From NCBI GenBank assembly GCA_023374045.1, contig CM041776.1:279123999-279187998 (forward strand): a stretch of 64,000 bases of DNA, in the 5' to 3' direction. Position 1 is the first letter of the stretch; each line of letters begins with the position of its first letter. This DNA comes from Limonium bicolor (lineage: Eukaryota; Streptophyta; Magnoliopsida; Caryophyllales; Plumbaginaceae). The position numbers and the translations under genes are program-made. Below the pieces are notes generated by a model, which was not told the origin of the DNA, searched no databases, and was given only the letters and a program-made list of their open reading frames with translations. This document shows positions 19,748-59,249 of the stretch, piece after piece.

Positions 19748-20213
19748 TGAAATACCCCGAACTTAAATATAGGGATTAAAATTTATCTCATATGTATTTA
19801 AGGGCCTAATGGTACCCAATTAATACTAGTAAGGAAAAATAAATCCAAAAGAAATAAAGAAACGCTTTAAAAGCGGAAAACGCTAAATAAGCGTTAAATA
19901 ACCATAGGAGGTACGAGACCTCGGTTAGAGTATTATATGGATTTTGAAGGTTTAATAAGACCTAAATAATGTATGGGAACAAATCCCGAAGAAAACGGAT
20001 CCTTAAAACGGATTAAAATCACTAACGAACCTTAAAGCGCGTTTTTCGAGGTAACCGAGAAAACGTGACTTTAAGCGGGTCAAATAGACTCGTAACAATT
20101 TTGGTCAACTAAATAATCATTAATAAATATTAGTGAGGCTTTAGAACCAATAAAAATCAAGAAAACGAGAAATTAGTAAAAACTGTCAAAAACGGGAAGT
20201 TGTGGGGTAGAGA

Positions 20214-20220
20214 TATAAAT
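20214..20220 (+). promoter_or_regulatory. Candidate TATA box of the 5' LTR
   Basis: TATAAAT lies within GTAGAGATATAAATAACACA, followed by pyrimidine-rich text. The same motif occurs in the 3' LTR at 30195-30201. The 44.7-59.2 kb element has TATAATTA or TATGATTAG at the matching position, which supports this as the LTR core promoter. Confidence 0.55.
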
Positions 20221-22005: not shown

Positions 22006-22412
22006 GGGCCCGACCGAACTTGCGACCGGACTTGCAAGTTCGGTCGAGCCCAGATTTACAAAGACGGGAAAGCTTCTGGAATCGACCGGACTTGCGAGGA
22101 CTTGCAAGTTCGGTCGGACCAGAAAAATTCTCCCGTCTGGAACCTACTGGAATCGACCGGACTTGCGACCGGACATGCAAGTTCGGTCGGCCAGAAAAAT
22201 TTCCGTCGAGTAAGCTACTGGAATGGACCGACCTTGCGACCGGACTTGCAAGGTCGGTCGGGCTAAAATTTTTCCGCTAAGTAACTTACTGGAATGGACC
22301 GACCTTGGGACCGGACTTGCAAGGTCGGTCGGCCCTGGAATTTTCACCCGATGTAACCTACTGACTCGGACCGAACTTGCAAGGTCGGTCGCAAGTTCGG
22401 TCGGGTCAAAAC
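22006..22412. repeat. Tandem hairpin array inside the LTR (CCGACCGAACTTGC family)
   Basis: About six units of 60-75 bp. Each has a palindromic core (GACCGGACTTGC..GCAAGTTCGGTC) and a variable spacer such as CTACTGGAATC. The arms could form 12-bp stems. The same array occurs in the 3' LTR (31989-32396) and, in variant form, in both LTRs of the 44.7-59.2 kb element. Confidence 0.9.
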
Positions 22413-24063: not shown

Positions 24064-24075
24064 TGGTATCAGAGC
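24064..24075 (+). promoter_or_regulatory. Primer-binding site, initiator tRNA-Met
   Basis: TGGTATCAGAGC follows the 5' LTR end by a few bases. It is complementary to the 3' end of plant initiator tRNA-Met, the usual primer of chromoviruses. The next bases (GAAGTATCGCTCTGATG) parallel the leader of the 44.7-59.2 kb element. Confidence 0.92.
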
Positions 24076-29714: not shown

Positions 29715-29726
29715 AAGGGGGGTAGA
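29715..29726 (+). promoter_or_regulatory. Polypurine tract before the 3' LTR
   Basis: AAGGGGGGTAGA ends two bases before TGAAATACCCC at 29728. This is the normal plus-strand priming site of the element. Confidence 0.9.
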
Positions 29727-29727
29727 T

Positions 29728-32700
29728 TGAAATACCCCGAACTTAAATATAGGGATTAAAATTTATCTCATATGTATTTAAGGGCCTAATGGTACCCAAT
29801 TAATACTAGTAAGGAAAAATAAATCCAAAAGAAATAAAGAAACGCTTTAAAAGCGGAAAACGCTAAATAAGCGTTAAATAACCATAGGAGGTACGAGACC
29901 TCGGTTAGAGTATTATATGGATTTTGAAGGTTTAATAAGACCTAAATAATATATGGGAACAAATCCCGAAGAAAACGGATCCTTAAAACGGATTAAAATC
30001 ACTAACGAACCTTAAAGCGCGTTTTCGAGAGGTAACCGAGAAAACGTGACTTTAAGCGGGTCAAATAGACTCGTAACAATTTTGGTCAACTAAATAATCA
30101 TTAATAAATATTAGTGAGGCTTTAGAACCAATAAAAATCAAGAAAACGAGAAATTAGTAAAAACTGTCAAAAACGGGAAGTTGTGGGGTAGAGATATAAA
30201 TAACACAAACTTATGTGTCCACTTTTAAAATAAAAGAAAAAATTGTGTGTGTGTGTGTGCTAGTGAGCCGGCCCCTACCCCCCTCTCTCACACACTCACT
30301 CACCCCTTCTAATTTACAAACAAACAAAAACAATAAAGTAACCCCCACCCTCACTTTATTTTCTCTCTCCTACCCATTCTCCTCCCTCACTCACGTACTC
30401 ACCTCCTCCCTCACTCTCTTTTCTTTCTTCTCCTTCCTCCCCCATGCGATTTCTATGGAGGTTTGAAGAACCACACACAAAACCTCACTTCTCTCCTCTT
30501 GTTACTCCATCAAACATTCTCCAAAAATTATAAAAATACCACCATTGGAATCCTCTCATCAAGAGCTACATTCCTATCTTTTCAAAAATCGAAAACAACA
30601 ACTTTCATCTCCATGGGTATGGAGCATTTGGAGCTTCAAGACCACCATTAGAAGGCCCTCCTTCTCCTTGTTCTTTTAAGGTAAAAATATTCCTAAAAAC
30701 TCCATCCTTTTCTAGCCTCAAGGGCAAAACGAAAATGAAAACTAAAACCTTTGTTGCTCCTTGTATCCTAGCCGATTTTGGCATCTTGGTGGAGTTGGAA
30801 ACTTTGTTCTTGAACCACTCCAAGCTTCATTTACACCCTTGCAAGGTAATGAGAATTCTAAACCCTAAAACCTACTTAAAGTTTAAGAATAGCTATAGGG
30901 TTAGTTTTTTAGTGTATTGAAATGTGTATGTATATGGGTTGTAGAGTAGAGAATTTTGTTTGCTAAACCGGTGGAGAAAGAGGAAAAGAAGAAGCAAGAG
31001 GAAGAAAAGAAATTAGAAGAGAAACAAGGTAAGGATACTCACCTTTGTGTAGCCTTGTATATGTATGGATGTAACAGATTTTTAGAAGTTTGAAATGAGT
31101 AATGGAAATGGTATTGTGTAGTAATGTCTTGTGCAGGAGAATCTAAGTGCTTAAAACCGTTGAAAAACATGTAAAATGTATTGAAACTTAGTTGGGTATT
31201 GGGTTGTTGAGTGCAGGAATTTTTAGTAGTGTTTTAGTATTGGTAAATGTGTATGGGAGCTTGTATATTGATGTTGTGTATAAACAGGTGAGATGATGTT
31301 AATGTGTGAGAGAAACCATGTGGAGAATGTTAATAATATAGGGGAGACTATGTCAAATTTTATCTAGGAATTTGAGGACTTAAGTGTTCAAGATGAGAAA
31401 ACAACCTAGGTAGTGACTAGGTGTATGTGGAGAGTATAATGGGAGCGTTTAGTAGCTTGTAACAGATTTGGGGGTGATTTGTTAATGGGTTGCAACTAGG
31501 AAGTGAATGGATGTATTTTGGCTACTAGGGGTAGCATTAGTTGAGGAAGTAATGGAGGAAATAAGAACCCAAAAATCTGCAACAAAGTGTATAGAGATAC
31601 ATTGGAGAAGTTAGGAAGAGTTAGTGTGGAAGAATTGATGACAAGAGTGTTGGACTTGGGTATAGATATGGTAGTGGCTTGGGAATGAATTGGAGGGTAA
31701 GGTAATACATTGTAGGCTTTGGAAATGGCATTGGGAGATGAGAATATACATGGGGGAAATAGGAGCAAAAATCTGTAGCGTTGGAGGATGAAAAACTGTT
31801 GTAAGTGTGGAAGGGAAGTGATGAAATTGTGTAAGTGGATTGATGGATTTAGTAAAGCATTTGGTGGGTGAACTAAGGCAATTTGAAGGGCCTAGGTAGT
31901 GTTTAAACATGTGAAATTACATGTAAGAAGATTGGAGAAACAATGGGTAAAGTATGGGACTGAAAACAGAAGTAAAAATGCAAATACTGGGCCCGACCGA
32001 ACTTGCGACCGGACTTGCAAGTTCGGTCGAGCCCAGATTTACAAAGACGGGAAAGCTTCTGGAATCGACCGGACTTGCGACCGGACTTGCAAGTTCGGTC
32101 GGACCAGAAAAATTCTCCCGTCTGGAACCTACTGGAATCGACCGGACTTGCGACCGGACATGCAAGTTCGGTCGGCCAGAAAAATTTCCGTCGAGTAAGC
32201 TACTGGAATGGACCGACCTTGCGACCGGACTTGCAAGGTCGGTCGGGCTAAAATTTTTCCGCTAAGTAACTTACTGGAATGGACCGACCTTGGGACCGGA
32301 CTTGCAAGGTCGGTCGGCCCTGGAATTTTCACCCGATGTAACCTACTGACTCGGACCGAACTTGCAAGGTCGGTCGCAAGTTCGGTCGGGTCAAAACTTA
32401 CAAAAAAAAAAACTATAAGACTATGGTTAGTATATGTATGTATGTATATGTATACCCACCTATACATACGTGCATATATGTGTAAGTAAACCATTGTTAA
32501 GTAATTAAAAGTAAGTAAATAAAATGTAAGTATAAGAATGTGAAGACCTAGTAAGTATGAGTTAGGAAGCGTAAGGGTAACCGAATTAAGTTAATGATAG
32601 TTAGATTAATTATTCGGTTGTATGTATATCATAGGATTTGAATTGTGAATACCGGAGGAACGTTGGGATACGAGTACAACGGTGAAAGGTATGATTTCTT

Positions 32701-34051
32701 CATGCCCTGTATCCTAATCTGGTTACCCCGATTTGTGTGCTTATTTGACCACCTAAATAAGATAAATGCATGAATCGGACTATATTGCACTTACCTGTGC
32801 TTGACTTATGTTGTGCTTGATATTTACTGTCTTGAGCACTAGTTTGTATAATTCATGAAATATATGAATGGTGATGTATGGTATTCGAACCTCGTATTGT
32901 ACTTGTGTAATGTATTGCACCTCGTATGTATGTGTATATGTGTATTGTATTATTGTGGCTTGGATGTTGACTTGTGCTAATTCCTAACTATCTAACTCCT
33001 AACTTAAGTGAGTAAATTGGAATGAGTACAAGTCCGATATAGCTTCGGCCACGCGTGAGGATGCGGAGTCACAAGAGGTTGGCTGCAATTCCTGACTCTT
33101 AAACTGGTCCGCGGCCCAAATCCCTTAAATGGGTAGCATCCCGGATTAGTGAGTCAAGTAAATCCCGGAGGTGGGACGGTGTAGTCCCCAGGGCCGGAGG
33201 TCCCGACGACTTAACTTGAGTAAGAGTAAGAGTAAGTAAGTATGGATCCGTAAGTATGTATGAGTATGTATCGTATGTATGAAGTAACGAGTAAAAGAGT
33301 AATCTCCACCCGATTAACCCGGGTGGAACAATGAAGCTAACAAGAACTGTACTTTGTGTATGTAGTAAGTATGTGTATTCGGAAGAAGGTAAAGTGAGTA
33401 TTGAATGGTTATATCGTAATCCTTGTATGTAATGAATTGTATGTATGTATGTTATGTAAGTATATTATACTGTGTGTAAGAGCATGTATGCATGTATGCT
33501 TGTATGAAAATGAACCGCATGTATTCGACCAAGTGGTCGGCGTACCCTCACTAGTACGCGGGGTATGCGGTTATCATGCTCGGCGAAAGCTGACCCCTTC
33601 GGGGGACATTTTTTTAGTGTGCAGGTACCCGAATAGAATATGGTCAAGGAAGAGACCGGAGGCACACCTTTGTAATTAGGAGTAAGTAGTTTGTGAGGAA
33701 CGGGTAGTAAGTAGTCTCGTAGTGAGTACGTATGAACTTTGAAGAGGTAGTATATTTGTATAAGGATCTTAGTAAACTCGGTATGTGGATTATATTGTAT
33801 GGTATTTGAAGTATTGTATCGAATGAAAGAATGTAGCGTGTATTGGTGTATGAAATATATATGGTAGATATGTAATACTCAGGATTCCGGTCCATCAGAC
33901 CGATGCTGTAAGCAGTAATAGTAGCCTTGTTAGCCACGTGGGTGGCTAACGGCATTGTATCACCCATTGTATGTAAGTAAGTATCCGCTGCGTATATCTG
34001 ACGTGTAAGGAGATTGGACGGTAAGCATGTATTAATGGTAGGGGTGTTACA
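29728..34051 (+). repeat. 3' LTR of the non-autonomous element (4324 bp)
   Basis: Near-identical to 19748-24058. Most differences are 1-5 base indels (for example around 20012 versus 30020, 20370 versus 30357, 21455 versus 31438) with few substitutions. The same hairpins are present at 31989-32396, about 33597 and 33929-33950. Confidence 0.93.
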
Positions 34052-41879: not shown

Positions 41880-44719
41880 TGAAATACCCCAAACCTTAGT
41901 ATATTGTTTAAACACCTAAATATGGTATATTAAGACTAAAAAGAGTCTTAGAAACATTAGTAAACAAATTTAAACGATAGAAAACACAAAATGTGCTTTA
42001 AGGTCAATAAGAGCCAAAACGTGCTCTAAGCTTGGGATAAGCTTGGTTAAGACCTAATGAACTTACCAAGACCTCATTTATATACTAATGAACATATTAA
42101 ACCAATTACCAAAGAAAACCAAGCTTGAAAACAAGTTAAAACACAAAATGTGCTTTAAGAAGTCTTAAAGCACATTTTTGAAAAATTGTCTTGTAAATGA
42201 GTTTTGAGTGGCTAAATGTACATCATTACTCTTAAATATATATGTGTACTATATAGTATCACATTTGGATGTCTATATCAATGGGAAATCAAAAATTTCA
42301 CTTCTATGTGCCTTGTTTTCATGAATAGTGATTTTGATAAGCTATTTTGTAACATATGTTGTATTAAGTAATTAAATGATTCAACAAAGACTAAAATACC
42401 CTCATATTACTATTGGGGGCCGGTTTTTAAGGGTGGTGACTCACCACTCTTGTTAGCTCATTAGTTAAATAAAGATGACAAGTTAAGTACTATTTACTTT
42501 ACTTTATTAACAAATATCTTCAAAAGCAACTTACCTTCTTCATTTCTTTCATGTTCCCACCGTCTCCAACTCCATCTCCTTCCTTCTTGCTCTCATTTTC
42601 GGACAAGCTACAGCACCACCATCATTTCACCACCTTTGACCATCAATAATTCATAGCTCACTTAACCAAATCAAATTCTAAGACCACCACCTTCTTCCTC
42701 TCATCAAGCTCTTCACTTCTATCTTCTCAAAACTTCAAGAGCCCCATTTCGGTGCCATGGAGTTCCACCATTGAAGGAGCTTGAGCTTGTATTTCTACAT
42801 ATTATTACTCTCATTTGCTTCTAGGTAAGGAATCTTAAATAAAAACTTCATTTCCTTCATGTTTTTGTTGTGACCGAAAACACCCATTGAAGGTGCTCTT
42901 TATATGGCTTTGTTTTAGCTTCATTCCAACCTTTCAAGGACTAGGTGGAGTCCTCTCTTCATAGATATTCAAACTCTCTTCAAAGACCAAGGTAAAACAA
43001 CTACATTAATATTTTTGAAATAATGTAAAATTAGGGTTTACAATGAGATGAAGCTTAAAGCTTGAATACTCATTATGAGGTTTGTATATTGTTTAGAACT
43101 TGACAAGGAATCAAATACCTTACCGGTTTTATAAGGAAACAAGAAAGAAGTTGTTTGGAAAAGAGGTAAAAATACTAACCTAATGTAGTTTAATGCCTTA
43201 GGAGAAATGAGCTTATAATGCTTGTTAAAACTACCTAAAGAGCAAATGGTAAATGACCTAGTGAAATGTTCTCACGGAGACTAGTAAAAGAACATATGTC
43301 TTGTTGTATGTATTTGCAGGTCAAAGGCATATATATTGTGGAAATTCAGTGTTTATGATTTAAGCACTTTAAGGGCCTAAGAGCCATGCATTTTAAGGGC
43401 CTAAGTGCCATGCAATTTAAGTTATGCATTATATTTTAATGTAGTGAGATTTGAGTGAAGTTTTGTGTATGAGAGTGTTCTTGGTGTTCTTAGTGTTCTT
43501 GGGTGTTTAATGGTGAAAACAAAGTGCTTTGGTGTAACAAAATGCTAGGATAACCTATGTCGAAATTTAGGAAATGCATAAGGAGTTCAAGATGTTTTAA
43601 AGGAATTTTGATGAACTAGAAAGTGTTCTAGAGTGTAATAAGGACTTAGGCATGATCTTGAAGTTTTAGTATGTACCAAAGTCATTTTGGACTTAGGTAA
43701 AGACTTAGGCAAACTTTGGTAAATTGAGGAGAAAGTGTAAGCTTGGAAAAGGAATTGTAAGAATGACATAAGGAGTTTTGATTTGTAAGAAAGGATGTTT
43801 GGATGATGATGTTTGTGTGGGAGATATGTCTTGGTATAATAGTTAGAATAGGCATGAAACATCACTTAGGAACCTAGGGAGTAGATACTATAAGTGTTGG
43901 AGGCTTTGGAGAAATTTGGCTAAGTGTTTGAAGGCTTGGAAATTGAGCATTTTGCCTTGTCCGAACTTCCGTCCGGACATGGAAGTTCGGACAGGCTCTG
44001 TTGGGTAAGAATTTTGCACACTCAAACTATGTCCGAACTTGGGAAGTCCGGACACATGTTCGGACGCATGGATTTCCGCATTAAGAGATTCTCGACTCAC
44101 GTCCGAAATCCGGACACAAGTTCGGACGTGTGTCTGTTTTCAGTTCAAAGTCACGGCTTGCGTCCGAACTTGGAGGTTCGGACACAAGTTCGGACAGGCC
44201 ACTGTATGGACCAAAATTGTTGTTTTAAGTGGGGAAATGATGTCTAAAAATGGTAATTAACTAGTAAAGATGGTGTGAGGTTAATTAAGACATGTTAGGA
44301 GTGTTATAATGGTAATTAAAATGGTGAAGAGTTATAACAAGTGTGAAAATAAAATAAAATAGATATGTGAAGTAACAAGTTAACAATGGATTAGTGCGTT
44401 AATTAACCGACGTTACTAATGTGTTTAGGATTCTCTCAAGGTGGAAACGAATCGAGGCAAGGACCAAAGTATGGTTTTCTTGCAGTCTGTTGCCTACCGG
44501 TTTACACCGGCTTGTGTGTTGTTTGTTTTTCTGTGTGTTTATGACTTTGTAAGATTAAACCGTGTAAAGAGTTTACAGTTGTTAAATATTATTATGTTGA
44601 TAAGTATGACTCTCTCTTCCCTTGTGTGTGTCTAACAAGACTTGACCTATTACTGTGATTTGTGTATTGAGTTTAATAATGAACTGCTGACAAGTGCTAA
44701 CGGGGGAAGTGAGGAGTCC
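41880..44719 (+). repeat. Solo LTR 2, left part (TSD TTACT)
   Basis: It starts TGAAATACCCCAAACC at 41880, preceded by TTACT (41875-41879). The other end at 60144 (GGGGTGTTACA) is followed by TTACT (60145-60149). It is interrupted at 44719 by the 14.5-kb element (TSD AGTCC). The two parts add up to about 3.7 kb with no PBS, PPT or genes, so this is a solo LTR. It carries its own hairpin array at 43960-44205. Confidence 0.88.
43960..44205. repeat. Hairpin array of solo LTR 2 (GTCCGAACTT family)
   Basis: Four repeated palindromic modules such as GTCCGAACTTCCGTCCGGAC and GTCCGGACACATGTTCGGAC, spaced by unrelated 25-40 bp. The architecture equals the arrays in the two full elements, but the sequence differs (GTCCGAAC instead of GACCGAAC). 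Confidence 0.8.
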
Positions 44720-47700
44720 TGTAACACCCCAACCGCTAATCCTATGCTTACCGTCTAATCGTCCTATTAATCTTACGAGTTCGCAGCGGAATTATTACTT
44801 ACTTACTACGGCGGGTGAAACAATGCCGCTAACCGCCCATACGGCTAGCTAGGCTACTAATACTTACAGTAACGGTCTGATGAACATAACGTACCGAGCT
44901 ACTAAATTACTTGCCAAGATAACATATGCCAAATACTTACATCCTGGATCACCGAGTATTTAAAGTATATTCAATTACAACCTTTCAAGCTTACCAAAAG
45001 AATGAGTTTCTAAAGCTACTCATCTATACCCCAATCCAGTACTTCCATTATCCAAAAAGGTGTACCCCATGGTACACCGGCTATTCAAAACTACAGCCAT
45101 GTACTACTCAGTACACCCATCATAAATTCATTGTTTACATTCCAAAAAGAAGATAAAAGAAATGAAACTCAATCTTCACATCTTCATCCCTCGCGGGTAC
45201 CTGCGTGTAGTAAAAATGGTGCCCCAAGGGGCTCAGCAAACGCTGCATATGGACTCCGCATATACCGCGTGCTAGCTAGGGCACGCCGACTATTTGACGT
45301 CCACTAAACATGCAGTTCATTATTTCATACATACATGCTTGCATACAACATACCTTCATTCACAATACATTATTCATTCCAAGGCAACAATACAATTATG
45401 CTCACAATACTTACCTTCGCAAGGTTAGCCAAATTATGCACCCGGGTTAATCGGAGTGCTTATTACTCTTTTACTCATTACACAATACTTACACATTCTC
45501 TTTCATACTTTACTTGCTTACCTTTCCATACTCATTCACTTGCTCTTACTTACTCATACTTCTTACTCATACTCATATTAAGCCGGTGTGGCCTCTGGGC
45601 AGGGACTACACCGTCCCACCACCAGGCTTTACTTGACTCACCAATCCGGGATGCTACCCATTTAAGGGATTTGGGCCGCGGACCAGTTAAGAGTCAGGAA
45701 TTGGGGCCAACCTCTCGTGACCCCGCATCCTCACGCGTGGCCGAAACTATATCGGACTTCTACTCATTCCAATTTAGTTACCAATTTAAGTTAGGATGGT
45801 TAGCTTGTTAGGAATAAGTTAGAAGTCCCTTCACACAATTAATCGGTCACGATACAATACATCATACGTACACACATTCATACTCATCCAAACATTTCAT
45901 GAATTATACAAACTAAAATTTAAGAAAATGCTCACAACATACAACACTACATATTCACAAGTATGCATATTAACTCCGATTCGTGCATTTATCTTATTTG
46001 GTGATCAATTAGCACACAACACACAAATCAGAGTAACCAAGATAGCATACGGGGCATGAGGAATCCATACCGTTCACCGTTGTACGTGATTCCAAACGTC
46101 CTTCGGTGTCACAAATCAAGTCCTATTATATACATACAATTGAATGATTAATCTAGCTATCATTACTTAACTCATACTTACTATGTCTTTATACTCCTTA
46201 CACTTACACTTTACTTACTTACTTTTCATTACTTAGGTTTTACTTTCTTACTTAACTTTGGCATGCTTTCATACATGTACATATATATATGTAGGTATAT
46301 ACATACATATATATATATGTATATTTTAATTTAAATAATTTTTTTTTTGACCGGACCGGACTTGCGACCGACCTTGCAAGTCCGGTCCATTCCAGTAGCT
46401 CAGATTACCGAAATCCTTCTGGCCGACCGAACTTGCAAGTCCGGTCGCAAGTTCGGTCGATTCCAGTAGCTATCCTCGGGAAATTTTTCTGGGCCGACCG
46501 AACTTGCATGTCCGGTCGCAAGTCCGGTCGATTCCAGTAGGTATCCTCGGAAATTTTCTGGCCGACCGAACTTGCATGTCCGGTCGCAAGTCGGTCGATT
46601 CCAGTAGGTTACAGGGGAAATTTTGGCCGACCGAACTTGCAAGTCCGGTCGCAAGTCGGTCGATTCCAGTAGGTTACAGACGGGAAATTTTCTGGTCCGA
46701 CCGAACTTGCAAGTCCGGTCGCAAGTCGGTCGATTCCAGTAGGTTCAGACGGGAAAATTTCTGGTCCGACCGAACTTGCAAGTCCGGTCGCAAGTTCGGT
46801 CGATTCCAGTAGCTCACCCGTCTTTGTAAGTCTGGGCTCGACCGAACTTGCAAGTCCGGTCGCAAGTTCGGTCCGGCCCAGTATTTGCATTTTACTTTCT
46901 GTTTTCAGTCCTCTCTTTTACCCAATACTTCCCCATTGTTCCTACACTTAATCCCATGTTTTAACACTATTTAAACCTCCTAATACACCTAGTTCATTTC
47001 CTAACTCCTTACACAATTTTATACTCATTCACTCACCTAATTTTCTAAGTTTCAACTCACACTTTCACTAGTTGTTTCCTAGTTGTGTTTGCTACAGATT
47101 TTAACTAACACTCTCCATCTACAACTCCCTCTTCTAATGTCATTTCTAACACCTCTAATACATTACAACTACATTAACTATCTCTCCCCATCTTCCCTCT
47201 ATCTATCTATTCAAAATCTGTTACACTTACATCATTCACCTAGTTTAAAATTCACTAAGTGTTCTAATTCTAGATAAATTTTGACATAACCTCCCCTATA
47301 TTTTTACACTCTCACCACATTCTAGTTCACATTCACACTCTTTCACCTGTTTCAACAACCAAATATACAAGCTCTCATATACCAAACTCAATACTAAAAC
47401 ACTACAAAATTTCCTGCACTCAACAACTAATCCCAATCTGTTTGTAACAGTTTTAATGTTTTAAAGCTTCAAAATACTTAATTCTCTTACATTATACTAC
47501 TAATGCATTACCATTTTACAATACTTTTACTTCTAAAAATCTGTTACATACTATACAAGGCTACACAATGAGCATTCTTACCTTGTTTCTTCTAGTTTTC
47601 TTTCTCTTCTTCCTTCCTTCTCTCTACCGGTTTTGTAATCTCAATCCTCTAACACTACAACCATTCACATACACCATTCAATACTAAACTAACCTAACCA

Positions 47701-48667
47701 TTAATCAAGTTTAATCTAGGTTTTAGGGTTTAGAAAATTTATTACCTTCCAAGAGCAAAGAGCTGTTTGGGATAGCTCAAGAACAAGGTTTCTCACACCA
47801 CCAAAATGCCAAAATCGGCTGAACACAAGGAAACAAGGTTTAGTCTAATTTTCGTTTTGCCTTTGAGGCTAGAAAAAGATGGAGTTTTCGAAATATTTTT
47901 ACCTTAGAAGAACAAGGAGAAGGAGGGCCTTCTAATGGTGGTGTTGAAGCTCCAAATGGGGTATACCCATAAAATCGAAAGCTTGTTTTTGGATTTTGGA
48001 AAGATGAAAATGTAGCTCTTGATGAGAGGATTACAATGGTGGTATTTTTATAATTTTTGGAGAGTTTGGAGAGAGTTACAAAGGAGAGAAGATGGTTTGT
48101 GGGTGTTTCTTATTCACCATGGAAATCGCATGAGGTTGAAGAAGAAAAAGAGAGTGAGGAGGAGTGTGCACGTGAGAGAAGAGAATGGGATAGGAGAGAG
48201 TGGTAAAGTGAGTGAGTGTTACTTTTTGTTTTTAATTGTTTTTGTCTTTAGTATAAAGAGTAAGTGTGTGTGTGTATATATGTAAAATCGGACAGCACAC
48301 AGCACTAGGGGTTTTAAAATTTTATTTACAATATTGGACACATAAGTTTGTGTAATTATACTTCTACCCCACAACTTCCCGTTTTTGACAGTTTTTACTA
48401 ATTTCTCGTTTTGATTTTATTGGTCTAAAGCTTCACTAATATTTATTAATGATTATTTAGTTGACCAAAATTGTTACGAGTCTATTTGACCCGCTTAAAG
48501 ACACGTTTTCCCGGTTACCTCGAAAAACGTGCTTTAAGGTTCGGTAATGTTTTTAAACCGTTTTAAATCCGTTTTCTTCGGGATTTGTTCCCTTATAATT
48601 TACTTAATTAAGCTCTAAATTACTTATTAGCCTAATTAATCACTATTTTTAATTACGGGGTATTTCA
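44720..48667 (-). repeat. 3' LTR of the chromovirus (3948 bp)
   Basis: Matches 55212-59244. It contains the hairpin array (46346-46880), the CGGCCACGCGTGAGGATGCG block and the GCCCCTTGGGGC hairpin (about 45221-45232). The terminal hairpin lies at 44828-44849. The TATA-equivalent reads TATAATTA on the minus strand (48353-48360). Confidence 0.93.
46346..46880. repeat. Hairpin array in the chromovirus 3' LTR
   Basis: About eight units of roughly 65 bp, each CCGACCGAACTTGCAAGTCC + GGTCGCAAGTTCGGTC + GATTCCAGTAG spacer. GACCGAACTTGC and GCAAGTTCGGTC form a 12-bp inverted repeat. Frames through the array code only repeat peptides. Confidence 0.9.
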
Positions 48668-49098: not shown

Positions 49099-50245
49099 CT
49101 AGTCTATGAATAACTGCGGGTATTTAGCCTTCATGGCATCTTCCAACTCCCATGTCGCTTCTTCGACATCATGGTTAGACCATAGGACCTTCACCATTCG
49201 TATAGACTTATGGCGAGTGTCTCTGGTCTTCCTATCAAGGATTCTCACTGGGGTTTCGACATATCTCATGTTTGGCTCAATGGATAAGTGCTCGGGCTCC
49301 AACACATGAGAAGGATCAGCAATACTTCTTGAGTTGTGACACATGAAATACATCATGGACACGCCCCAAGTCCTCAGGTAGTGCTAACCTGTAGGCTACT
49401 GAACCAACTCTTTCGGTGATAGTGTACGGCCCTACAAACTTTGGGCTTAGCTTGCCCTTCTGACCAAATCGAAGACACCCTTCATAGGTGAAACTCGCAA
49501 GAACACTTGGTCGCCCACGGCGAACTCAAGGTCGCGTCGTCTCACATCCGCATAGGATTTCTGTCTATCTTGGGCTGCCTTCATGTTAGCTCGGATTTGT
49601 TGCACTTCGGCTTGCACTTGCTCAAGGTACTCCGGTCCTATTATGACCGCTTCACTTGACTCATCCCAACACAAGGGTGTACGGCAAGGTCTACCGTATA
49701 GAGCTTGGAAAGGCGACATCTTAATCGAGGCGTGATAACTATTATTATACGAGAACTCGATAAGATGAAGCTTATCTAACCAACTCCCCTGAAAGTCCAA
49801 GGCACATGCCCGAAGCATGTCCTCCAGTGTCTGGATGGTCCTTTCTGTCTGACCGTCGGTCTGAGGATGGAAGGCGGTACTCAACTTCAGTTCTGTACCC
49901 AACGCTTCCCTTGTAGCTCTCCAGTATCTCGAAAGAAATCTGGTGTCGCGGTCAGATACTATGGTCTTAGGGACTCCGTGGTGTCTGATAATCTCCTTAT
50001 CAAAAAGCTCAGCTAGCTTTACTACCTTCCAGGTGTCCTTCATCGGTATGAATCTGGCAACCTTGGTAAGGCGATCTACTACAACCCAGATCATGTTGAG
50101 TCCTCCCCTAGCAGGTGGGAGTCCTACAACAAAATCCATGGAGATATCATGAAATTTCCACTCCGGAATTGGCATCGATTGTACCATTCCGCCCGGTCTA
50201 CGGTGTTCAAATTTTACCTTCTGGCATGTCAAGCATCTCAATACA
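49099..50245 (-). pseudogene. pol part 3: integrase core, GPY/F and chromodomain-like tail (frameshifted)
   Basis: In element order: [12 protein letters not shown] (second pair of the HHCC zinc finger), [10 protein letters not shown] (first Asp), [13 protein letters not shown] (second Asp), [19 protein letters not shown] (Glu), then [20 protein letters not shown] (GPY/F region), [13 protein letters not shown], and finally PVRILDRKTR, VKVLWSNHDVEEATWELED, ending at 49099. The last block is the chromodomain-like tail of Tekay/Del chromoviruses. Reading frames change at about 49472 and 49321, each by a one- or two-base indel. The catalytic triad is intact, so the copy is young or the breaks are sequence errors. 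Confidence 0.9.
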
Positions 50246-51262
50246 ATTCTGTCACATCTGACTTCATTCCAGACCACCAGAAGTACCTCTTCATGTCTTT
50301 GTACATCTTGGAGGCTCCCGGATGGACTGATAATGTAGAACTATGTGACTCTCGCAGGATGCGATCCCTTAGCTCAGCATTGCTTCGGGGGACGCATAGC
50401 CTGCCATTCAACCGAATCAAACCATCTTCATGTAGCTTAAAATCATACTTTTTCTTCTCAAATGTACCATTCTCGATCTTGTGTCTGATTTCGGTTAGGT
50501 AAGGGTCGCTCAACTGAGCGTCTCGCACCTCGTCAACCAAGCTAGAAGAAGCGAGTAGCGAATGGAGCGAGTGTGCTCGACGGCTCAGGGCGTCGGCTAC
50601 AATGTTTGCCTTCCCTTCCTTATACTGCAGGTTGATGTCGTAGTCTGAGAGAAACTCCATCCACCTTCTCTGTCTCAAGTTGAGTTCTTTCTGAGTGAAT
50701 ACATACTGTAAGCTCTTATGGTCGGAGTAGATGGTGATGCTTACCCCATAGAGATAGTGTCGCCATATCTTCAAGGCGAAGACAATGGCTCCTAACTCTA
50801 AGTCGTGAGTCGGGTAATTCTCCTCATGTTTCTTCAGCTGGCGGGAGGCATAAGCAACAACCTTGCCATGCTGCATGAGTACGCATCCCATTCCTTTGCC
50901 TGATGCATCACAGTATACCTCAAATCCCTCTGTGCCCTCTGGAAGAGTAAGGACGGGCGCTGAGGTCAATGAGTCTTTCAGTTTCTGAAATGATAACTCG
51001 CACTCGTCTGTCCATACAAACGGTGCATCTTTCTTCATCAATGTAGTCATGGGCTTGGCGACTTTCGAGAAGTCCCTTACAAATCTCCGGTAGTAACCGG
51101 CTAGACCAAGAAAGCTCCTAATGTCGGTAACAGTCTTGGGTCTAGGCCATGATCGTACAGCTTCTACCTTAGAAGGGTCAACCGAGATACCTGCGCTCGA
51201 GATGACATGTCCAAGGAATGATACCTGATCAAGCCAAAACTCGCATTTGGAGAACTTCGCAT
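50246..51262 (-). pseudogene. pol part 2: RT C-terminus, RNase H and integrase zinc finger (frameshifted)
   Basis: Continues RT after a one-base loss near 51262. It has the connection region with [13 protein letters not shown], RNase H ([66 protein letters not shown]), then the integrase N-terminal region with [15 protein letters not shown] (His pair). A second one-base loss near 50246 changes frame just before the Cys pair. Frames on either side match the family without missing domains. The RNase H acidic residues D, E, D and D are all present. Confidence 0.9.
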
Positions 51263-52473
51263 AAGCTGGTTCTCGCGCAGTGTCTCAAGCACTTTCCTCA
51301 AGTGGATTTCATGTTCCTCTGGTGATTTGGAATATACAAGGATGTCGTCGATGAAGACCACAACCGAAGTGTCCAACTGCTCACTGAATAGTCGATTCAT
51401 GAGGTCCATGAATTTTGCCGGTGCGTTTGACAAACCGAATGGCATCACTGTGAATTCATAGTGGCCATATCTGGTACGGAATGCCGTTTTCTCGATGTCT
51501 TGCTCTTTGATTGCAATCTGATGATACCCTGAACGGAGGTCGATCTTGGAGAAGACTGAGGCTCCTCTCAACTGGTCGAATAGGTCATCGATACGTGGTA
51601 GTGGGTATTTATTTTTGACTGTGACCGCATTCAGCTCGCGGTAGTCAATGCATAGTCGGAGACTACCGTCCTTCTTCTTAACGAAGAGGACCGGTGCTCC
51701 CCAGGGTGATACGCTCGGGCGTATAAACCCTTTGTCTAGAAGATCTCTCAACTGTTCTTTCAATTCGGTCATCTCTGCTGGTGCCATGTGGTATGGTGCC
51801 CTGGCAATGGGACCGGTACCTAGCAATAGATCAATTTCGAATTCCACTGCTCTCGGTGGTGGCATGCCAGGTAGCTCCTTAGGGAATACATCGGGATACT
51901 CGGATACAATGGGTACTTCATCACTGAACTCTGGATCTCGCTCCAGGTCTTGTACATAACAAAGATACACCTCTTGGCCCTTTCTGAGCTCCCGGTACAT
52001 GGCCATGGCAGATATGAGTGTGGTCGAAGGCTCTCTCGGTCTCTGGCGGTAAGATACGGTAACCCCAGAAGGACTCTTGAGCAGCAAACGATGCTCGGCG
52101 CAGAGGATTCTACCCTTGTGCCGCTCCAACCAATTCATCCCAATGATTACGTCGAATCCCAATCCATTGAATTCGATGAAGGAAAGGGGAAACGATTCGC
52201 CTTTGATTTGGATTGTGGCTGATTGATAGTATTTGGTGCACTTTACTCGCTCCTTCGATGGGAGAGTAACCATGAAGTTCGGTAGCTCATCCGCATCTAG
52301 CTTCAACCTCTTCACAAGGGATGATGATACGAAAGTGTGAGAGGCGCCGGAGTCGAATAACACATTGGCATCAATGCCATTTACTGGGAAGGTTCCCGTT
52401 AGAATGGTGCCGCTTCTGCCGGCTTGTGCTTCGGTGAGGATGCTCAGGTTACCTTCGGTACCGAGTCCACAAC
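51263..52473 (-). CDS. pol part 1: aspartic protease and reverse transcriptase (exon 4)
   Basis: It starts at the inferred splice acceptor (AG at 52475-52474). The protease has [17 protein letters not shown] (active-site DSG), [13 protein letters not shown] (flap/ILG-like) and follows a short linker. RT follows: [78 protein letters not shown], and the catalytic [11 protein letters not shown]. The frame is lost just after LRENQL near 51263. Without splicing it has no strong start of its own, so expression as a Gag-Pol fusion is likely. Confidence 0.92.
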
Positions 52474-53506
52474 CTATTGGATTCACAATTGGATAAGTAT
52501 TGATGGAGGACACAAGTGAAATTAAATCAACACTGCTCTTTATTGATAAACCAACCATCATACATACCGTGTCTCTAATACACGTTACTAATAGATTACA
52601 TGATACTAGGAATTTAATACTTTCTAATGGTAAGGTTCAGGTGTCCTGGTTTCATGTGTGTGGCATTGATTATTGCCAGCGGTGCCGTATTCAACTTGAT
52701 CTTATTGATCCCGTGATACAGCATCCTAGAGTTTCCACCCATGATTAGGACATCTCCTGATCTCAATACCAGTTTCTGTGCGAGGTCCACACGCTTCTGC
52801 TCGCTATACAGGAATACGGCGTCATCACCAATGGACCAAAACACTACGGGCACTCCTTGTTCAAGAGATTCCGCTGTCTCGTCCTTGTCTTGGTGTAACC
52901 CAAGTCGTCCTTCTTTCTCGTAGAAGTTGACGATACAGAGATCCGCTTCAAGTGCGGGGATCGGTTCAGGTTCGCATTGTTGTGCAAGTTCCACTGCTTG
53001 TGTGATGAGTGTCTGAAACTCTGGTGGTATTGTCGGTGGCGTCGCTCCGTCTTGTGTTCGTGTCTCCTGGTATGTCTTGGTATAAGGATTCCAGTCCTTT
53101 CCCAAGCACATCATCTTCAGCTTCATCTTCACTCCACCGGGGAATTCGGGTGTGTAAAATCCACCTTGACCCGTTCCTAGCTCGTTGCATCGTGGAATGA
53201 TTGAGATTTGCGCTTCGGGTGTCAGGTATCCCCTTAATAAGATCATACCTGGTCGGATGACCTGACACTGATTGTTGGTGTAGTCATGGTTGGTGATGTC
53301 GATCTCTTCTTGATTCAAGGTTACCGGTATCGGGTAACAGATACTAAAGTTTCCTATGGTTACAAATTTCATCTACGGTGAGTACTAGTTTCAACTACTC
53401 CATTTCATGCTCAAAATACACTTCATTTATTTACTCATGCATTCACTCATACAGTTACTCTACTACTAGGCATGCTATTTCAAGGATTAAAGGTTGAGAT
53501 TATTAC
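52474..53506 (-). other. Putative 1033-bp intron of gag-pol carrying the AlkB frame
   Basis: Donor CCCAG|GTAATA at 53507|53506 and acceptor CCAATAG|GTTGTG at 52474|52473, preceded by a pyrimidine-rich stretch. The donor exon ends in phase 1, and the acceptor restores exactly the protease frame. Unspliced, gag stops five codons after the donor. A second possible acceptor, CACCGTAG, ends at 53373, immediately before the AlkB ATG. The splice sites are inferred from sequence and frame, not from transcripts. Confidence 0.75.
52614..53372 (-). CDS. AlkB/ALKBH1-like 2-oxoglutarate Fe(II) dioxygenase inside a retrotransposon intron
   Basis: A complete 252-codon frame, same strand as gag-pol. Residues 40-52 ([13 protein letters not shown]) and 69-92 (..[21 protein letters not shown]) match the N-terminal part of plant ALKBH1-type proteins. 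NFY 149-151 precedes the iron-binding LGLHQDKDE (His160, Asp162). [11 protein letters not shown] is followed by LYHGI (His220), and NLTIR ends with Arg250. So all three iron ligands and the final Arg are present. The residue matching AlkB Arg204, which binds 2-oxoglutarate, is His244 (codon CAC, explainable by a CpG transition from CGC). AlkB enzymes oxidatively remove methyl groups from DNA or RNA bases. The frame has no introns and no breaks, unlike pol. I infer capture of a host ALKBH1-like cDNA. Activity is uncertain because of His244. Confidence 0.93.
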
Positions 53507-53848
53507 CTGGGCCGGACTTAGAACCGGACCCATCACGGTCAATCACGTGAAGGACAGGCTGCCTCTGAGGTGCACCCCGCGGAGGTCCCCGGGATCCCTG
53601 TCCCTGTGGTGCCTGCTGGGTCGGTGCATCGCCAGATGCAACCTCTTTGCCTTCCCTCTGCCTGTAGCTTTGGTAGTTCCCTTTTTGCTTGGCATTTTCG
53701 GGGCAAAAGTTGGCTCGGTGCCCGGGCTTCTGACAATTGTAGCACCGGATTTCTCTCCCTTGGCAATCCTTGCCGGGATGGTCTAGATTGCACCTTCGGC
53801 ACATGTCTGTGCTGTCCGGATAGCTCTTGGTGGGACCGGAGCCGGAAC
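53507..53848 (-). CDS. gag exon 3: zinc-knuckle part
   Basis: Begins after the acceptor CCTTAG and contains two CCHC-like elements: CRRCNLDHPGKDC (incomplete knuckle) and CYNCQKPGHRANFC (classical CX2CX4HX4C). A Gln/Gly/Pro-rich tail follows (QQAPQGQGSRGPPRG). The phase after joining to exon 2 is exact. It ends at the donor of the AlkB-containing intron. This is the nucleocapsid part of Gag, which binds the element's RNA. Confidence 0.88.
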
Positions 53849-53933
53849 CTAAGGTTTAGAGGGTTAGCACATTTGTGCGTGGATATACTAGATGTATTAC
53901 TTGCACGAATACGAATTAGGGATAGAAGTTTAC
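53849..53933 (-). other. Putative 85-bp intron 2 in gag
   Basis: Donor AAGG|GTAAAC at 53934|53933, acceptor AACCTTAG|GTTCC at 53849|53848. It is AT-rich relative to the exons. Removal joins the frames exactly (phase 1); reading through ends exon 2's frame away from the zinc-knuckle frame. Confidence 0.7.
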
Positions 53934-54213
53934 CCTTAGGTGGGTATGATCTCAGTGGCTTTGCTGCCACCGGTGCGGATGAACCGAGTTGAAGAAGTTC
54001 AACCGGTTTGCCCTGCTCTGCATGGGCACTGCTCTCCCCCTGGGATTTCTTTAGGGATTGCTGAAAGAAATGCCCTTTCTTCTTTTTCCAGCTCTTCCCC
54101 TGGTTCTGCTCCTCAGTGCTGGTGTTTTTGTTGTTAGCTTTGCGCTTTAGCGCGGTCTCTTCATCCCTTAGCTGGCAAGTGATCTCAACGCGAGAAGCCG
54201 CGTGATAACACTC
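53934..54213 (-). CDS. gag exon 2: capsid C-terminal and linker
   Basis: Open for 93 codons in the frame set by exon 1 (phase 0 junction). It starts ECYHAASRVEITCQL, which resembles the gag segment that follows the capsid ('Y..A..VE..L'), then Lys/Gln/Ser-rich linker text. There is no start codon of its own in good context, consistent with being an internal exon. Confidence 0.75.
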
Positions 54214-54327
54214 CTGACATCTCAGGTATTAGCCGGGATTCTCATTTAAGGAGGTATAAAGAAAGATTCAAAGGATTCAAGGAATTTAAAGAATCGAATT
54301 TGATACTAAGGGCTATCTGTCATTTAC
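54214..54327 (-). other. Putative 114-bp intron 1 in gag
   Basis: Donor CTTCAG|GTAAAT at 54328|54327 and acceptor GATGTCAG|GAGTG at 54214|54213. Four codons past the donor there is an in-frame stop, so Gag would be truncated without splicing. Removal gives an exact phase-0 join into the next capsid segment. Confidence 0.7.
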
Positions 54328-54984
54328 CTGAAGGGAGGTAAATCTGGTGTAGCCCATACCGTACCGAAGGCGATGGCTCAGACCGCCATAGAAGCGATCG
54401 ACCAACACCTGGCCGGTGTATCCTAGATCAGGGAGGAGACGAAGGATGGAAGTGAAGGTGCGGTAGTACTCATCGACAGTCATCTTCTCTGTCATCTTCA
54501 AGGCGTCCAGCTCTAGCCTTTTCTTAGTTTTCACATGCTCCGGATAGTATTTGGAACGGAGGAGAGATGCAAAAGAATCCCAGTCGAATGCGGGGTCGCT
54601 GACGTGCTCGTGCTTGACCAGCTTCCACCAATCCATAGCAGCATCCTTGAGGTAGTAAGCAGCAACTCTGACTCGAACTCTAGCAGGAGCTTCAAGGGTT
54701 TCGAAAGCCGTCTCCATCTCGGAGATGTAGGCCTCGAGCTTAGCCGGATCACTCTCGCCCCTAAAGCAGGGAGGGCGGAGTTCCGCTACAGCTTTTACCC
54801 AGTTTGCTTCTCTGGGTGGCGGGGGAGGGATTGGTCCCGCTTGAGTTTGTTGGTTTTGTTGCATAGCGTTGATTACTTGTGGTAGCATCTGTGCTACCGT
54901 GGCAGCGACGATCTCAGCTATCGTCTGCGTGCCCGGTCCGTCATTGCCCCCTCCTCTGGGGCGACCTGGACCTCTGCCTGACAT
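54328..54984 (-). CDS. gag exon 1: Retrotrans_gag capsid domain
   Basis: 219 codons from the ATG at 54984, about 210 nt after the PBS. It opens with a Gly/Arg-rich MSGRGPGRPRGG. A helix follows (IAEIVAATVAQMLPQVINAM), a proline run, then the capsid domain: LRPPCFRGESDPAKLEAYI, ARVRVRVAAYYLKDAAMDWW, FDWDSFASLLRSKYYPEHV, KMTVDEYYRTFTSILRLLPD. This is the standard chromoviral gag fold. The frame ends at a splice donor rather than at the end of gag. Confidence 0.92.
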
Positions 54985-55194: not shown

Positions 55195-55206
55195 GCTCTG
55201 ATACCA
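55195..55206 (-). promoter_or_regulatory. Primer-binding site, initiator tRNA-Met (chromovirus)
   Basis: The minus strand reads TGGTATCAGAGC, five bases after the 5' LTR end, exactly as in the non-autonomous element at 24064. Confidence 0.93.
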
Positions 55207-55211
55207 CTTTT

Positions 55212-58200
55212 TGTAACACCCCAACCGCTAATCCTATGCTTACCGTCTAATCGTCCTATTAATCTTACGAGTTCGCAGCGGAATTATTACTTACTTACTA
55301 CGGCGGGTGAAACAATGCCGCTAACCGCCCATACGGCTAGCTAGGCTACTAATACTTACAGTAACGGTCTGATGAACATAACGTACCGAGCTACTAAATT
55401 ACTTGCCAAGATAACATATGCCAAATACTTACATCCTGGATCACCGAGTATTTAAAGTATATTCAATTACAACCTTTCAAGCTTACCAAAAGAATGAGTT
55501 TCTAAAGCTACTCATCTATACCCCAATCCAGTACTTCCATTATCCAAAAAGGTGTACCCCATGGTACACCGGCTATTCAAAACTACAGCCATGTACTACT
55601 CAGTACACCCATCATAAATTCATTGTTTACATTCCAAAAAGAAGATAAAAGAAATGAAACTCAATCTTCACATCTTCATCCCTCGCGGGTACCTGCGTGT
55701 AGTAAAAATGGTGCCCCAAGGGGCTCAGCAAACGCTGCATATGGACTCCGCATATACCGCGTGCTAGCTAGGGCACGCCGACTATTTGACGTCCACTAAA
55801 CATGCAGTTCATTATTTCATACATACATGCTTGCATACAACATACCTTCATTCACAATACATTATTCATTCCAAGGCAACAATACAATTATGCTCACAAT
55901 ACTTACCTTCGCAAGGTTAGCCAAATTATGCACCCGGGTTAATCGGAGTGCTTATTACTCTTTTACTCATTACACAATACTTACACATTCTCTTTCATAC
56001 TTTACTTGCTTACCTTTCCATACTCATTCACTTGCTCTTACTTACTCATACTTCTTACTCATACTCATATTAAGCCGGTGTGGCCTCTGGGCAGGGACTA
56101 CACCGTCCCACCACCAGGCTTTACTTGACTCACCAATCCGGGATGCTACCCATTTAAGGGATTTGGGCCGCGGACCAGTTAAGAGTCAGGAATTGGGGCC
56201 AACCTCTCGTGACCCCGCATCCTCACGCGTGGCCGAAACTATATCGGACTTCTACTCATTCCAATTTAGTTACCAATTTAAGTTAGGATGGTTAGCTTGT
56301 TAGGAATAAGTTAGAAGTCCCTTCACACAATTAATCGGTCACGATACAATACATCATACGTACACACATTCATACTCATCCAAACATTTCATGAATTATA
56401 CAAACTAAAATTTAAGAAAATGCTCACAACATACAACACTACATATTCACAAGTATGCATATTAACTCCGATTCGTGCATTTATCTTATTTGGTGATCAA
56501 TTAGCACACAACACACAAATCAGAGTAACCAAGATAGCATACGGGGCATGAGGAATCCATACCGTTCACCGTTGTACGTGATTCCAAACGTCCTTCGGTG
56601 CCACAAATCAAGTCCTATTATATACATACAATTGAATGATTAATCTAGCTATCATTACTTAACTCATACTTACTATGTCTTTATACTCCTTACACTTACA
56701 CTTTACTTACTTACTTTTCATTACTTAGGTTTTACTTTCTTACTTAACTTTGGCGTGCTTTCATACATGTACATATATATATGTAGGTATATACATACAT
56801 ATATATATGTATATTATTTAATTTAAATAATATATTTTTTTTTGACCGGACCGGACTTGCGACCGACCTTGCAAGTCGGTCCATTCCAGTAGCTCTCAGA
56901 TTACCGAATCTTCTGGCCCGACGAACTTGCAAGTCCGGTCCATTCCAGGTCGATTCCAGTAGCTATCCTCGAAGTTTTGGTCGACCGAACTTGCATGTCC
57001 GGTCGCAAGTCGGTCGATTCCAGTAGTATCCTCGGAAATTTTCTGGACCGACCGAACTTGCATGTCCGGTCGCAAGTCCGGTCGATTCCAGTAGGTTCAG
57101 GATGGAAATTCTTCAGGCCGACCGAACTTGCATCCGGTCGCAAGTTCGGTCGATTCCAGTAGGTTACAGACGGGGAAATTTCTGGTCCGACCGAACTTGC
57201 AAGTCCGGTCGCAAGTTCGGTCGATTCCAGTAGGTTACAGACGGGGAAAATTTCTGGTCCGACCGAACTTGCAAGTCCGGTCGCAAGTTCGGTCGATTCC
57301 AATAGCTCACCCGTCTTTGTAAGTCTGGGCTCGACCGAACTTGCAAGTCCGGTCGCAAGTTCGGTCCGGCCCAGTATTTGCATTTTACTTTCTGTTTTCA
57401 GTCCTCTCTTTTACCCAATACTTCCCCATTGTTCCTACACTTAATCCCCCATGTTTTAACACTATTTAAACCTCCTAACACACCTTAGTTCATTTCCTAA
57501 CTCCTTACACCATTTTATAGTCATTCACTCACCTAATTTTCTAAGTTTCACTCACACTTTCACTAGTTGTTTCCTAGTTGTGTTTTGCTACAGATTTTAA
57601 CACTAACACTCTCCATCTACAACTCCCTCTTCTAATGTCATTGCTAACACCTCTAATACATTACAACTACATTAACTATCTCTCCCCATCTTCCCTCTAT
57701 CTATCTATTTCAAAATCTGTTACACTTACATCATTCACCTAGTTAAAATTCACTAAGTGTTCTAATTCTAGATAAATTTTGACATAACCTCCCCTATATT
57801 TTTACACTCTCACCACACATTCTAGTTCACAATTCGACACTCTTTTCACCTGTTTCAACAACCAAAACTATACAAGCTCTCATATACCAAACTCAATACT
57901 AAAACACTACAAAAATTTCCTGCACTCAACAACTAAATCCCAATCTGTTTGTAACAGTTTTTAAATTGTTTACAAAGGTTCAAAATGATTACATTCTCTT
58001 ACTCATTATACTACTAATGCATTACCATTTTACAATGTACATTTTACTTCTAAAAATCTGTTACATATACAAATATATACAAGGCTACACAATGAGCATT
58101 CTTACCTTGTTTCTCTTCTAGATTTTCTTTCTCTTCTTCCTTCTTTCTCTACCGGTTTTGTAATCTCAATCCTCTAACACTACAACCATTCACATACGCC

Positions 58201-59244
58201 ATTCAATACTAAGAGCTAACCCTAACCATTAATCAAGCTTTAATCTAGGTTTTAGGGTTTAGAAAATTTATTACCTTCCAAGAGCACAAGAGCTGTTTGG
58301 GATAGCTCAAGAACAAGGTTTCTCACACCACCAAAATGCCAAAATCGGCTGGACACACAAGGAGTAAACAAGGCTTTAGTCTAGATTTTCGTTTTGCCTT
58401 TGAGGCTAGAAAAAGATGGAGTTTTTTGAAATATTTTTACCTTAGAAGAACAAGGAGAAGGAGGGCCTTCTAATGGTGGTGTTGAAGCTCCAAATGGGGT
58501 ATACCCATAAAATCGAAAATGCTTGTTTTCGGATTTTGGAAGGATGAAAATGTAGCTCTTGATGAGAGGATTACAATGGTGGTATTTTTATAATTTTTGG
58601 AGGAGTTTGGAGAGAGTTACGAAGGAGAGAAGATGGAGTTTGTGGGTGTTCTCTTATTCACCATGGAAATCGCATGAGGTTGAAGAAGAAGAAAAAGAGA
58701 GAGTGAGGAGGAGTGTGCCCACGTGAGAGAAGAGAATGGGATAGGAGAGAGAGTGGTAAAGTGAGGTGAGTGTTTACTTTTTGGTTTTTAATTGTTTTTG
58801 TCTTTAGTTAATAAGAGAGTAGAGTGTGTGTGTGTGTATATATGTAAAATCGGACAGCACACAGCAGCTAGGGAGTTTTAAAATTTTATTTACAATATTG
58901 GACACATAAGTTTGTGCTAATCATACTTCTACCCCACAACTTCCCGTTTTTGACAGTTTTACTAATTTCTCGTTTTCTTGATTTTTATTGGTTCTAAAGC
59001 TTCACTAATATTTATTAATGATTATTTAGTTGACCAAAATTGTTACGAGTCTATTTGACCCGCTTAAAGATACGTTTTCCCGGTTACCTCGAAAAACGTG
59101 CTTTAAGGTTCGGTAATGTTTTTAAACCGTTTTAAAAGTCCGTTTTCTTCGGGATTTGTTCCCTTATGATTATTTACACTTAATTAAGCTTCTAAATTAC
59201 TTATTAGCCTAATTAATCACTATTTTTAATTACGGGGTATTTCA
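55212..59244 (-). repeat. 5' LTR of the chromovirus (4033 bp)
   Basis: Direct repeat of 44720-48667. The half nearest the LTR 3' end (55212-56820) is almost identical to the other copy; the rest differs mainly by 1-5 base indels. Hairpin array at 56840-57372, GCCCCTTGGGGC hairpin at 55713-55724, terminal hairpin at 55320-55341 and TCCGCTGCG at 55274-55282 (minus strand). The TATA-equivalent reads TATGATTAG (58917-58925). Confidence 0.93.
56840..57372. repeat. Hairpin array in the chromovirus 5' LTR
   Basis: The same ~65-bp palindromic units as 46346-46880, with unit-level indels between the two LTRs (for example a partly deleted unit near 56925-56950). Confidence 0.88.
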
Positions 59245-59249
59245 AGTCC

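Follow-up and report, generated by a model that had tools for sequence, protein, structure and literature searches.

A high-copy family of Ty3 chromoviruses in Limonium bicolor carries an ALKBH1-like AlkB coding sequence within an intron at the gag-pol border. The architecture, its conservation among loci, purifying selection on the AlkB frame, splice sites that are in phase with gag and genomic copies of both splice joints were all observed in the assembly. Judging from these sequences, the family probably took up an ALKBH1-like coding sequence before the three sampled subfamilies split, and this sequence is probably now expressed as an alternative exon. More tentatively, a three-way switch between Gag, Gag-AlkB and Gag-Pol may place the demethylase in particles, where it could clean methyl or alkyl marks off packaged RNA or nascent cDNA, and the domain may have been acquired independently of a case already published from an orchid.

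The window, meaning the whole stretch of 64,000 nucleotides that was analysed, contains on its minus strand a complete LTR retrotransposon with both LTRs, a primer binding site and a target duplication (Table 1). The primer binding site reads TGGTATCAGAGC, which we take to be the motif that pairs with initiator tRNA-Met. Because the gag, protease, reverse transcriptase, RNase H and integrase domains follow one another in this order and a C-terminal chromodomain lies after the integrase, the element is a Ty3 chromovirus, and it presumably resembles the Tekay/Del lineage; the integrase core was matched at 27.2 bits, which is below the Pfam whole-protein cut-off of 32.6. The initial annotation had described an ALKBH1-like frame between gag and protease, enclosed by an interval of 1033 nt with GT..AG ends, and this description was confirmed, now for a chromovirus with both LTRs. 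The pol frame of the window copy is broken in four places. The two LTRs are 96.1% identical by BLAST, with 26 mismatches and 95 gap openings over 4057 columns, and a MAFFT alignment gave 90 substitutions and 60 gaps over 3930 aligned positions, so the frame breaks in pol may partly be assembly errors. The first 19 nt of the 252-codon open reading frame are probably intron. The AATAAA that follows the AlkB stop within the intron is a possible poly(A) signal on the basis of its sequence; its use would yield short Gag-AlkB mRNAs unable to serve as genomic RNA.

Table 1. Features of the AlkB-bearing element, with positions counted from the first base of the window.
Feature	Position	Strand	Basis
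5' LTR (element sense)	55212..59244	-	edges from self-alignment; TG..CA ends
Primer binding site TGGTATCAGAGC	55195..55206	-	sequence read; adjoins 5' LTR
gag exon 1 (capsid, Retrotrans_gag)	54328..54984	-	PF03732, E 4e-16
gag intron 1, 114 nt, GT..AG	54214..54327	-	ends compared across loci
gag exon 2	53934..54213	-	open frame
gag intron 2, 85 nt, GT..AG	53849..53933	-	ends compared across loci
gag exon 3, zinc knuckle; 3' end is the shared donor AG/GT	53507..53848	-	open frame
gag-pol intron, donor to A2, 1033 nt, AlkB inside	52474..53506	-	A2 conservation and natural joins
Short alternative intron, donor to A1, 153 nt	53354..53506	-	A1 conservation and natural joins
AlkB exon, ALKBH1-like, 245 aa + stop, in Gag frame via A1	52614..53353	-	PF13532, fold match, dN/dS
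252-codon ORF of the initial annotation, ATG at 53372	52614..53372	-	open reading frame list
AATAAA past AlkB stop, within intron	52539..52544	-	sequence read
Protease + reverse transcriptase, pol start, exon after A2	51164..52473	-	PF08284, E 4.4e-28; PF00078, E 2.7e-32
RNase H + integrase zinc-binding part, frame broken relative to neighbours	50238..51050	-	PF17917, PF17919, PF17921
Integrase core	49447..50277	-	rve, E 4.7e-06, 27.2 bits
C-terminal chromodomain	49102..49320	-	PF00385, 25.9 bits, cut-off 25.1
3' LTR	44720..48667	-	LTR self-alignment
Target duplication AGTCC	44715-44719 and 59245-59249		both flanks of element

Tandem arrays of units of about 70 bp occupy 46369-46873 and 56841-57366, one in each LTR, and similar repeats occur in the LTRs of a second element at 19748-34051. 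The LTRs of this second element are 99.3% identical over 4331 positions and its target duplication is CTTGA. Parts of its LTRs (about 78%) and both of its internal edges are shared with the AlkB element, and none of the gag and pol parts of that element was matched in it. By these features it is probably a large non-autonomous partner that is mobilised in trans. It was also considered as an AlkB-free sister element and rejected because of the missing gag-pol match, for which reason it cannot date the capture of AlkB. The window further contains a host gene (15692-16606) whose single open frame encodes a Lon N-terminal domain. Over part of its length this gene is closest to Ancistrocladus (86% over 64%) and Dionaea (83% over 64%), and Nepenthes has 70% over 95%, which hints weakly at non-core Caryophyllales; Eucalyptus has 82% over 71%, and one Fragaria row had the top bit score at 46% identity.

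The AlkB domain of the window copy matches PF13532 and its nearest proteins are ALKBH1; the closest structure is OsALKBH1, and the fold is of the ALKBH1 type. An alignment-free fold model of the domain had a pLDDT of 31.8 and was discarded. The iron ligands H160, D162 and H220 (HxD...H) are invariant among 41 proteins, and the wider motif LHQD(K/R)DE is found in 21 of the 23 full-length element copies (it is absent from L013 and L023). In the RxxxxxR motif for 2-oxoglutarate the window copy has His for the first Arg, so that the cofactor arginine is lost there, and the remaining 22 full-length element copies end in PGRL.LTFR. A tree of 62 sequences was built from 12 element copies, 9 unnamed proteins and 41 named proteins, with a midpoint root for drawing only; the database proteins were picked among the 120 matches listed of 515, and host ALKBH1 genes were left out. 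In this tree the element AlkBs and four of the unnamed proteins (P0001, P0002, P0003 and P0006, which are 58-70% identical to the window AlkB) form one group (100/100) apart from the 41 named plant proteins. This grouping suggests that the lineage may reach other plants. Among viral contigs no relative was confirmed for either the window AlkB or P0001. A protein search with Gag exon 1 gave no protein at E <= 0.001 among 519 candidates, and so linked none of the unnamed AlkB proteins to Gag contigs.

The wider family was sampled from a 2.92 Gb assembly of 2,686 contigs. A profile search with PF13532 returned 38,325 first-look candidates, which are unscored and are not a copy count; the best 150 were scored, all 150 were above the cut-off and 149 had no internal stop. 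About every seventh of these 150 best matches was taken as an AlkB-chosen sample (L009-L028, n=20), a choice that favours intact frames. A second sample was drawn with the window protease exon, which gave 1,935 first-look candidates, of which 40 were scored and 30 taken, the window copy being one of them. The order gag exon 3, AlkB, protease was found in 20/20 AlkB-chosen loci, and AlkB lay between gag exon 3 and protease in 30/30 protease-chosen loci. Upstream of AlkB, gag exons 1 and 2 were matched in all AlkB-chosen loci but L020 (19 of 20); downstream, RNase H and integrase were matched in all but L024 (19 of 20), which has no match past the protease. The AlkB identity of these 20 loci to the window copy is 68-72%, and two further subfamilies, B (17 loci) and C (3 loci), were found besides that of the window (A). 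The unspliced gag donor pattern of subfamily B alone occurs at 6,668 places (3,320 + 3,348, with up to 3 mismatches), compared with 0 for a reversed control. AlkB is therefore a conserved part of the family, and a one-off insertion, which would have refuted the initial annotation, was rejected: all 50 sampled loci carry AlkB, and the AlkB-free copies that were seen are exact splice joins. AlkB copies at C1:497439466, 497449587, 497459630 and 497469727 stand in a row spaced by about 10.1 kb, and similar 10-kb spacings recur near 83.05 Mb of C5 and near 109.34 Mb of C6; such rows are likely to be tandem arrays of elements with common LTRs.

Gag carries three introns in this family, and AlkB lies within the third. 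The GT..AG ends of intron 1 were present in 8/8 printed loci and those of intron 2 in 7/8, with all three subfamilies represented in both cases. The eighth locus, L010, lacks intron 2 precisely at the predicted joint and reads as a natural copy of partly spliced RNA. Splice sites around AlkB were compared in 50 loci, namely the window, the 20 AlkB-chosen loci and 29 protease-chosen loci. The donor AG/GT after gag exon 3 is kept in all 50 (one has GTCAT), 21 of them counted by script and 29 by eye, the latter having CAAG where the script pattern has CCAG. By script, two acceptors are likewise kept in 50/50 loci: A1 (AG/GA) at the AlkB exon and A2 (TAG/G(C/T)TGTG). In all three subfamilies A1 directly precedes (N/T/S)(F/Y)xIC(Y/F)P, and its phase matches that of the donor, such that G + GA gives a glycine and AlkB follows. 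Most subfamily-B A1 sites end in AAAG and not in pyrimidine-AG; as an acceptor, AAAG is weaker than TAG. In 21/21 loci measured, unspliced Gag runs into a stop 3-10 codons further on, the split codon included. Two conserved in-phase acceptors with one donor predict that either Gag-AlkB or Gag-Pol is made by alternative splicing.

If one donor is used with two acceptors, joined copies are expected now and then from reverse-transcribed spliced RNA. Join patterns were searched genome-wide, the donor-A1 join in subfamilies B and A and the donor-A2 join in subfamily B. In subfamily B, with up to 3 mismatches allowed, there are 12 places with the donor-A1 join (3, 6, 2 and 1 with 0, 1, 2 and 3 mismatches). 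For the donor-A2 join there are 14 (5, 7 and 2 with 0, 1 and 2 mismatches), and the reversed-pattern controls of both gave 0 places each. The donor-A1 join of subfamily A was found at 1 place; its pattern follows the window haplotype, which is two bases off the commoner one, so some joins may be missed. Seven joined stretches of 211 bases from several haplotypes were read, and each of them keeps the frame across the joint. Three pass from Gag into protease (Gag-G-CALGT...) and four from Gag into AlkB (Gag-G-TFNICYP...). The initial annotation had stated that removal of the 1033 nt joins Gag to protease in exact frame, which agrees with these donor-A2 joins. The donor-A1 copies L059, L060, L065 and L066 carry stops or frame breaks. 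In L060 the reading that starts at the zinc knuckle, crosses the joint and reaches the AlkB end meets one stop; L059 is more broken, and both retain intron 2 and the acceptor before protease. L065 and L066 contain stops, and L066 diverges from AlkB soon past the joint, through either a deletion or a further splice. The donor-A2 copies read as AlkB-free copies from which AlkB was removed by the splice itself. The joins thus point to spliced RNA that is sometimes reverse-transcribed, and they are silent on translation and on the ratio of the products.

Selection was estimated from 23 unbroken AlkB copies (five of subfamily A including the window, 15 of B and 3 of C), with L018 and L025 dropped as broken and 4 copies used from the 29 other window-subfamily loci. 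Within subfamilies the dN/dS of AlkB is 0.250 (A), 0.140 (B) and 0.146 (C), and between subfamilies it is 0.138 (A-B), 0.080 (A-C) and 0.100 (B-C). A codon model with free omega gave 0.167 (lnL -3765.96), and omega=1 was worse by 187 lnL (lnL -3953.31). AlkB is under purifying selection, so the dN/dS check proposed with the initial annotation returned a value that is not neutral. The choice of intact copies lowers dN/dS within subfamilies and hardly accounts for the values between them. In AlkB the proportion of nonsynonymous sites changed between the window copy and subfamilies B / C is 0.177 / 0.197, and the corresponding values are 0.175 / 0.210 in protease, 0.280 / 0.299 in Gag capsid, 0.121 / 0.155 in RNase H and 0.075 / 0.064 in integrase; dN/dS is given for AlkB, and dS of most other domains lies past the Jukes-Cantor limit. 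The amino-acid constraint on AlkB is about that on protease and greater than that on Gag capsid.

AlkB could instead be a separate open reading frame with its own ATG that is translated from RNA in which the intron is retained, which was the form in which it was first annotated. The window copy does have a full frame from ATG to stop, and the same ATG context was seen in 16 of the 30 protease-chosen rows, the remaining rows displaying another stretch. However, this ATG occurs in 0/20 loci of subfamilies B and C, where the open frames run in with no ATG ahead of the conserved AlkB core. The in-phase AG/GA in 50/50 loci and the existence of donor-A1 joins also point to a Gag-AlkB fusion; a stand-alone gene was therefore set aside and is considered unlikely. 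The argument from joins would be weakened if the joined copies had arisen by ordinary deletion or by assembly mistakes and did not stem from spliced RNA. On one chromosome two donor-A1 places are separated by about 10 kb, and the same chromosome has two donor-A2 places separated by about 9 kb, so there are fewer events than places; the window LTR pair is also rich in indels. Against this, the joins are exact to the base at A1 and A2 alike, and they occur in several haplotypes. A control in which the donor was joined to a different AG of the short intron gave 0 places, and L010 has lost intron 2 exactly. Deletion or misassembly is thus a very improbable source of these copies.

It can also be asked whether AlkB is a passenger, that is, a captured host sequence that is functionless or was kept by chance in one burst. 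The AlkB frame is broken in 25 of the 29 other window-subfamily loci, although gag and protease matches are often split there too, and 14 places have lost AlkB through the exact donor-A2 join. Yet the low dN/dS between subfamilies persists at a synonymous divergence near saturation, and the likelihood gain over omega 1 and a constraint about equal to that on protease make a passenger scarcely credible. The main rival to action in particles concerns the target of the enzyme, which may act on host chromatin or RNA and not on the element, for example by countering silencing through 6mA or Polycomb. The similarity to OsALKBH1 fits this, as rice ALKBH1 is reported to impair PRC2 (PMC10469495), and the authors of the Phalaenopsis study allow for action of the enzyme described there on other cellular RNA (PMC9289625). 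The fusion to Gag, on the other hand, argues for delivery to particles over chromatin, and from the sequences at hand action on the host seems the less expected outcome, at a probability that is low without being negligible.

The particle reading supposes that the gag-end donor has three fates. Left unspliced, it would give Gag, ending within a few codons; joined to A1, it would give a Gag-AlkB fusion of about 672 residues by window coordinates; and joined to A2, it would skip AlkB and give Gag-Pol. A Gag fusion should co-assemble into particles, and we infer that the Gag-AlkB protein is made and enters them through its Gag part. Packaged AlkB would then meet the genomic RNA and the nascent single-stranded cDNA and could demethylate or repair either. 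The initial annotation had proposed that the enzyme might take m6A or m1A off the genomic RNA or act on methylated DNA. For ALKBH1, a preference for 6mA has been described where the DNA is unpaired or single-stranded (PMC10469495). The Gag fusion makes a sharp prediction on where the enzyme works.

In plant RNA viruses the AlkB domain is part of the replicase and is not known to be spliced. These viruses (cited in PMC9289625) are likewise RNA-based replicons that carry AlkB, though they are RNA viruses and not retrotransposons. The initial annotation knew of no standard chromovirus architecture with an AlkB domain. No AlkB chromovirus was found among the matches listed from literature on AlkB, chromoviruses and plant-element splicing, but LTR retrotransposons with an AlkB domain have been published from Phalaenopsis (2-ODD Gypsy elements, Gypsy_Pa_2799, paALKBH5-like), the AlkB of which removed m6A from RNA in vitro (PMC9289625). 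In that report a screen of 121 angiosperm genomes placed the 2-ODD/AlkB domain in no other genome used there. Both cases are amplified plant Ty3 LTR families with a conserved AlkB-type dioxygenase. As described there, however, the Phalaenopsis elements are 25 kb long, belong to the Ogre/Tat lineage and have a separate ORF2 of 565 aa that ends in AlkB, with Gag and Pol in one ORF that has no intron. The elements reported here are chromodomain-bearing chromoviruses in which AlkB lies between gag exon 3 and protease (50/50 loci), within the gag-pol intron, and would be an alternative exon in the Gag frame. The Phalaenopsis enzyme is ALKBH5-like and the present one ALKBH1-like, a comparison made by description and by the ALKBH1 identity of the nearest proteins here.

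Splicing near the gag/pol border is also known from plant LTR elements, namely BARE1 (PMC3735527) and Ogre and EVADE (PMC12786077), and, as is proposed here, it sets which polyprotein is made. In those elements splicing separates Gag from Gag-Pol, and the passages cited do not mention an exon for an enzyme that could be joined to Gag as an alternative 3' partner. The nematode element Cer1 produces an accessory protein, CERV, from a spliced mRNA (PMC10309623), but CERV is described as a novel protein and a nuclear export factor of genomic RNA. The bare idea of AlkB in an LTR retrotransposon is thus not new (PMC9289625), nor is gag/pol-border splicing. What appears to be new is the combination, in a chromovirus, of an ALKBH1-like domain with its place as an alternative exon in the frame of Gag, which was not found among the literature matches listed.

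Genomic copies of spliced RNA can back an alternative-splicing model without a transcriptome, and with 6,668 donor sites in one subfamily, host RNA and particles could test the model directly. With this chromovirus family, AlkB enzymes would be known from a second lineage of retrotransposons, which differs from the published one in clade and in AlkB type. This suggests that removal of methyl marks pays repeatedly for plant retroelements.
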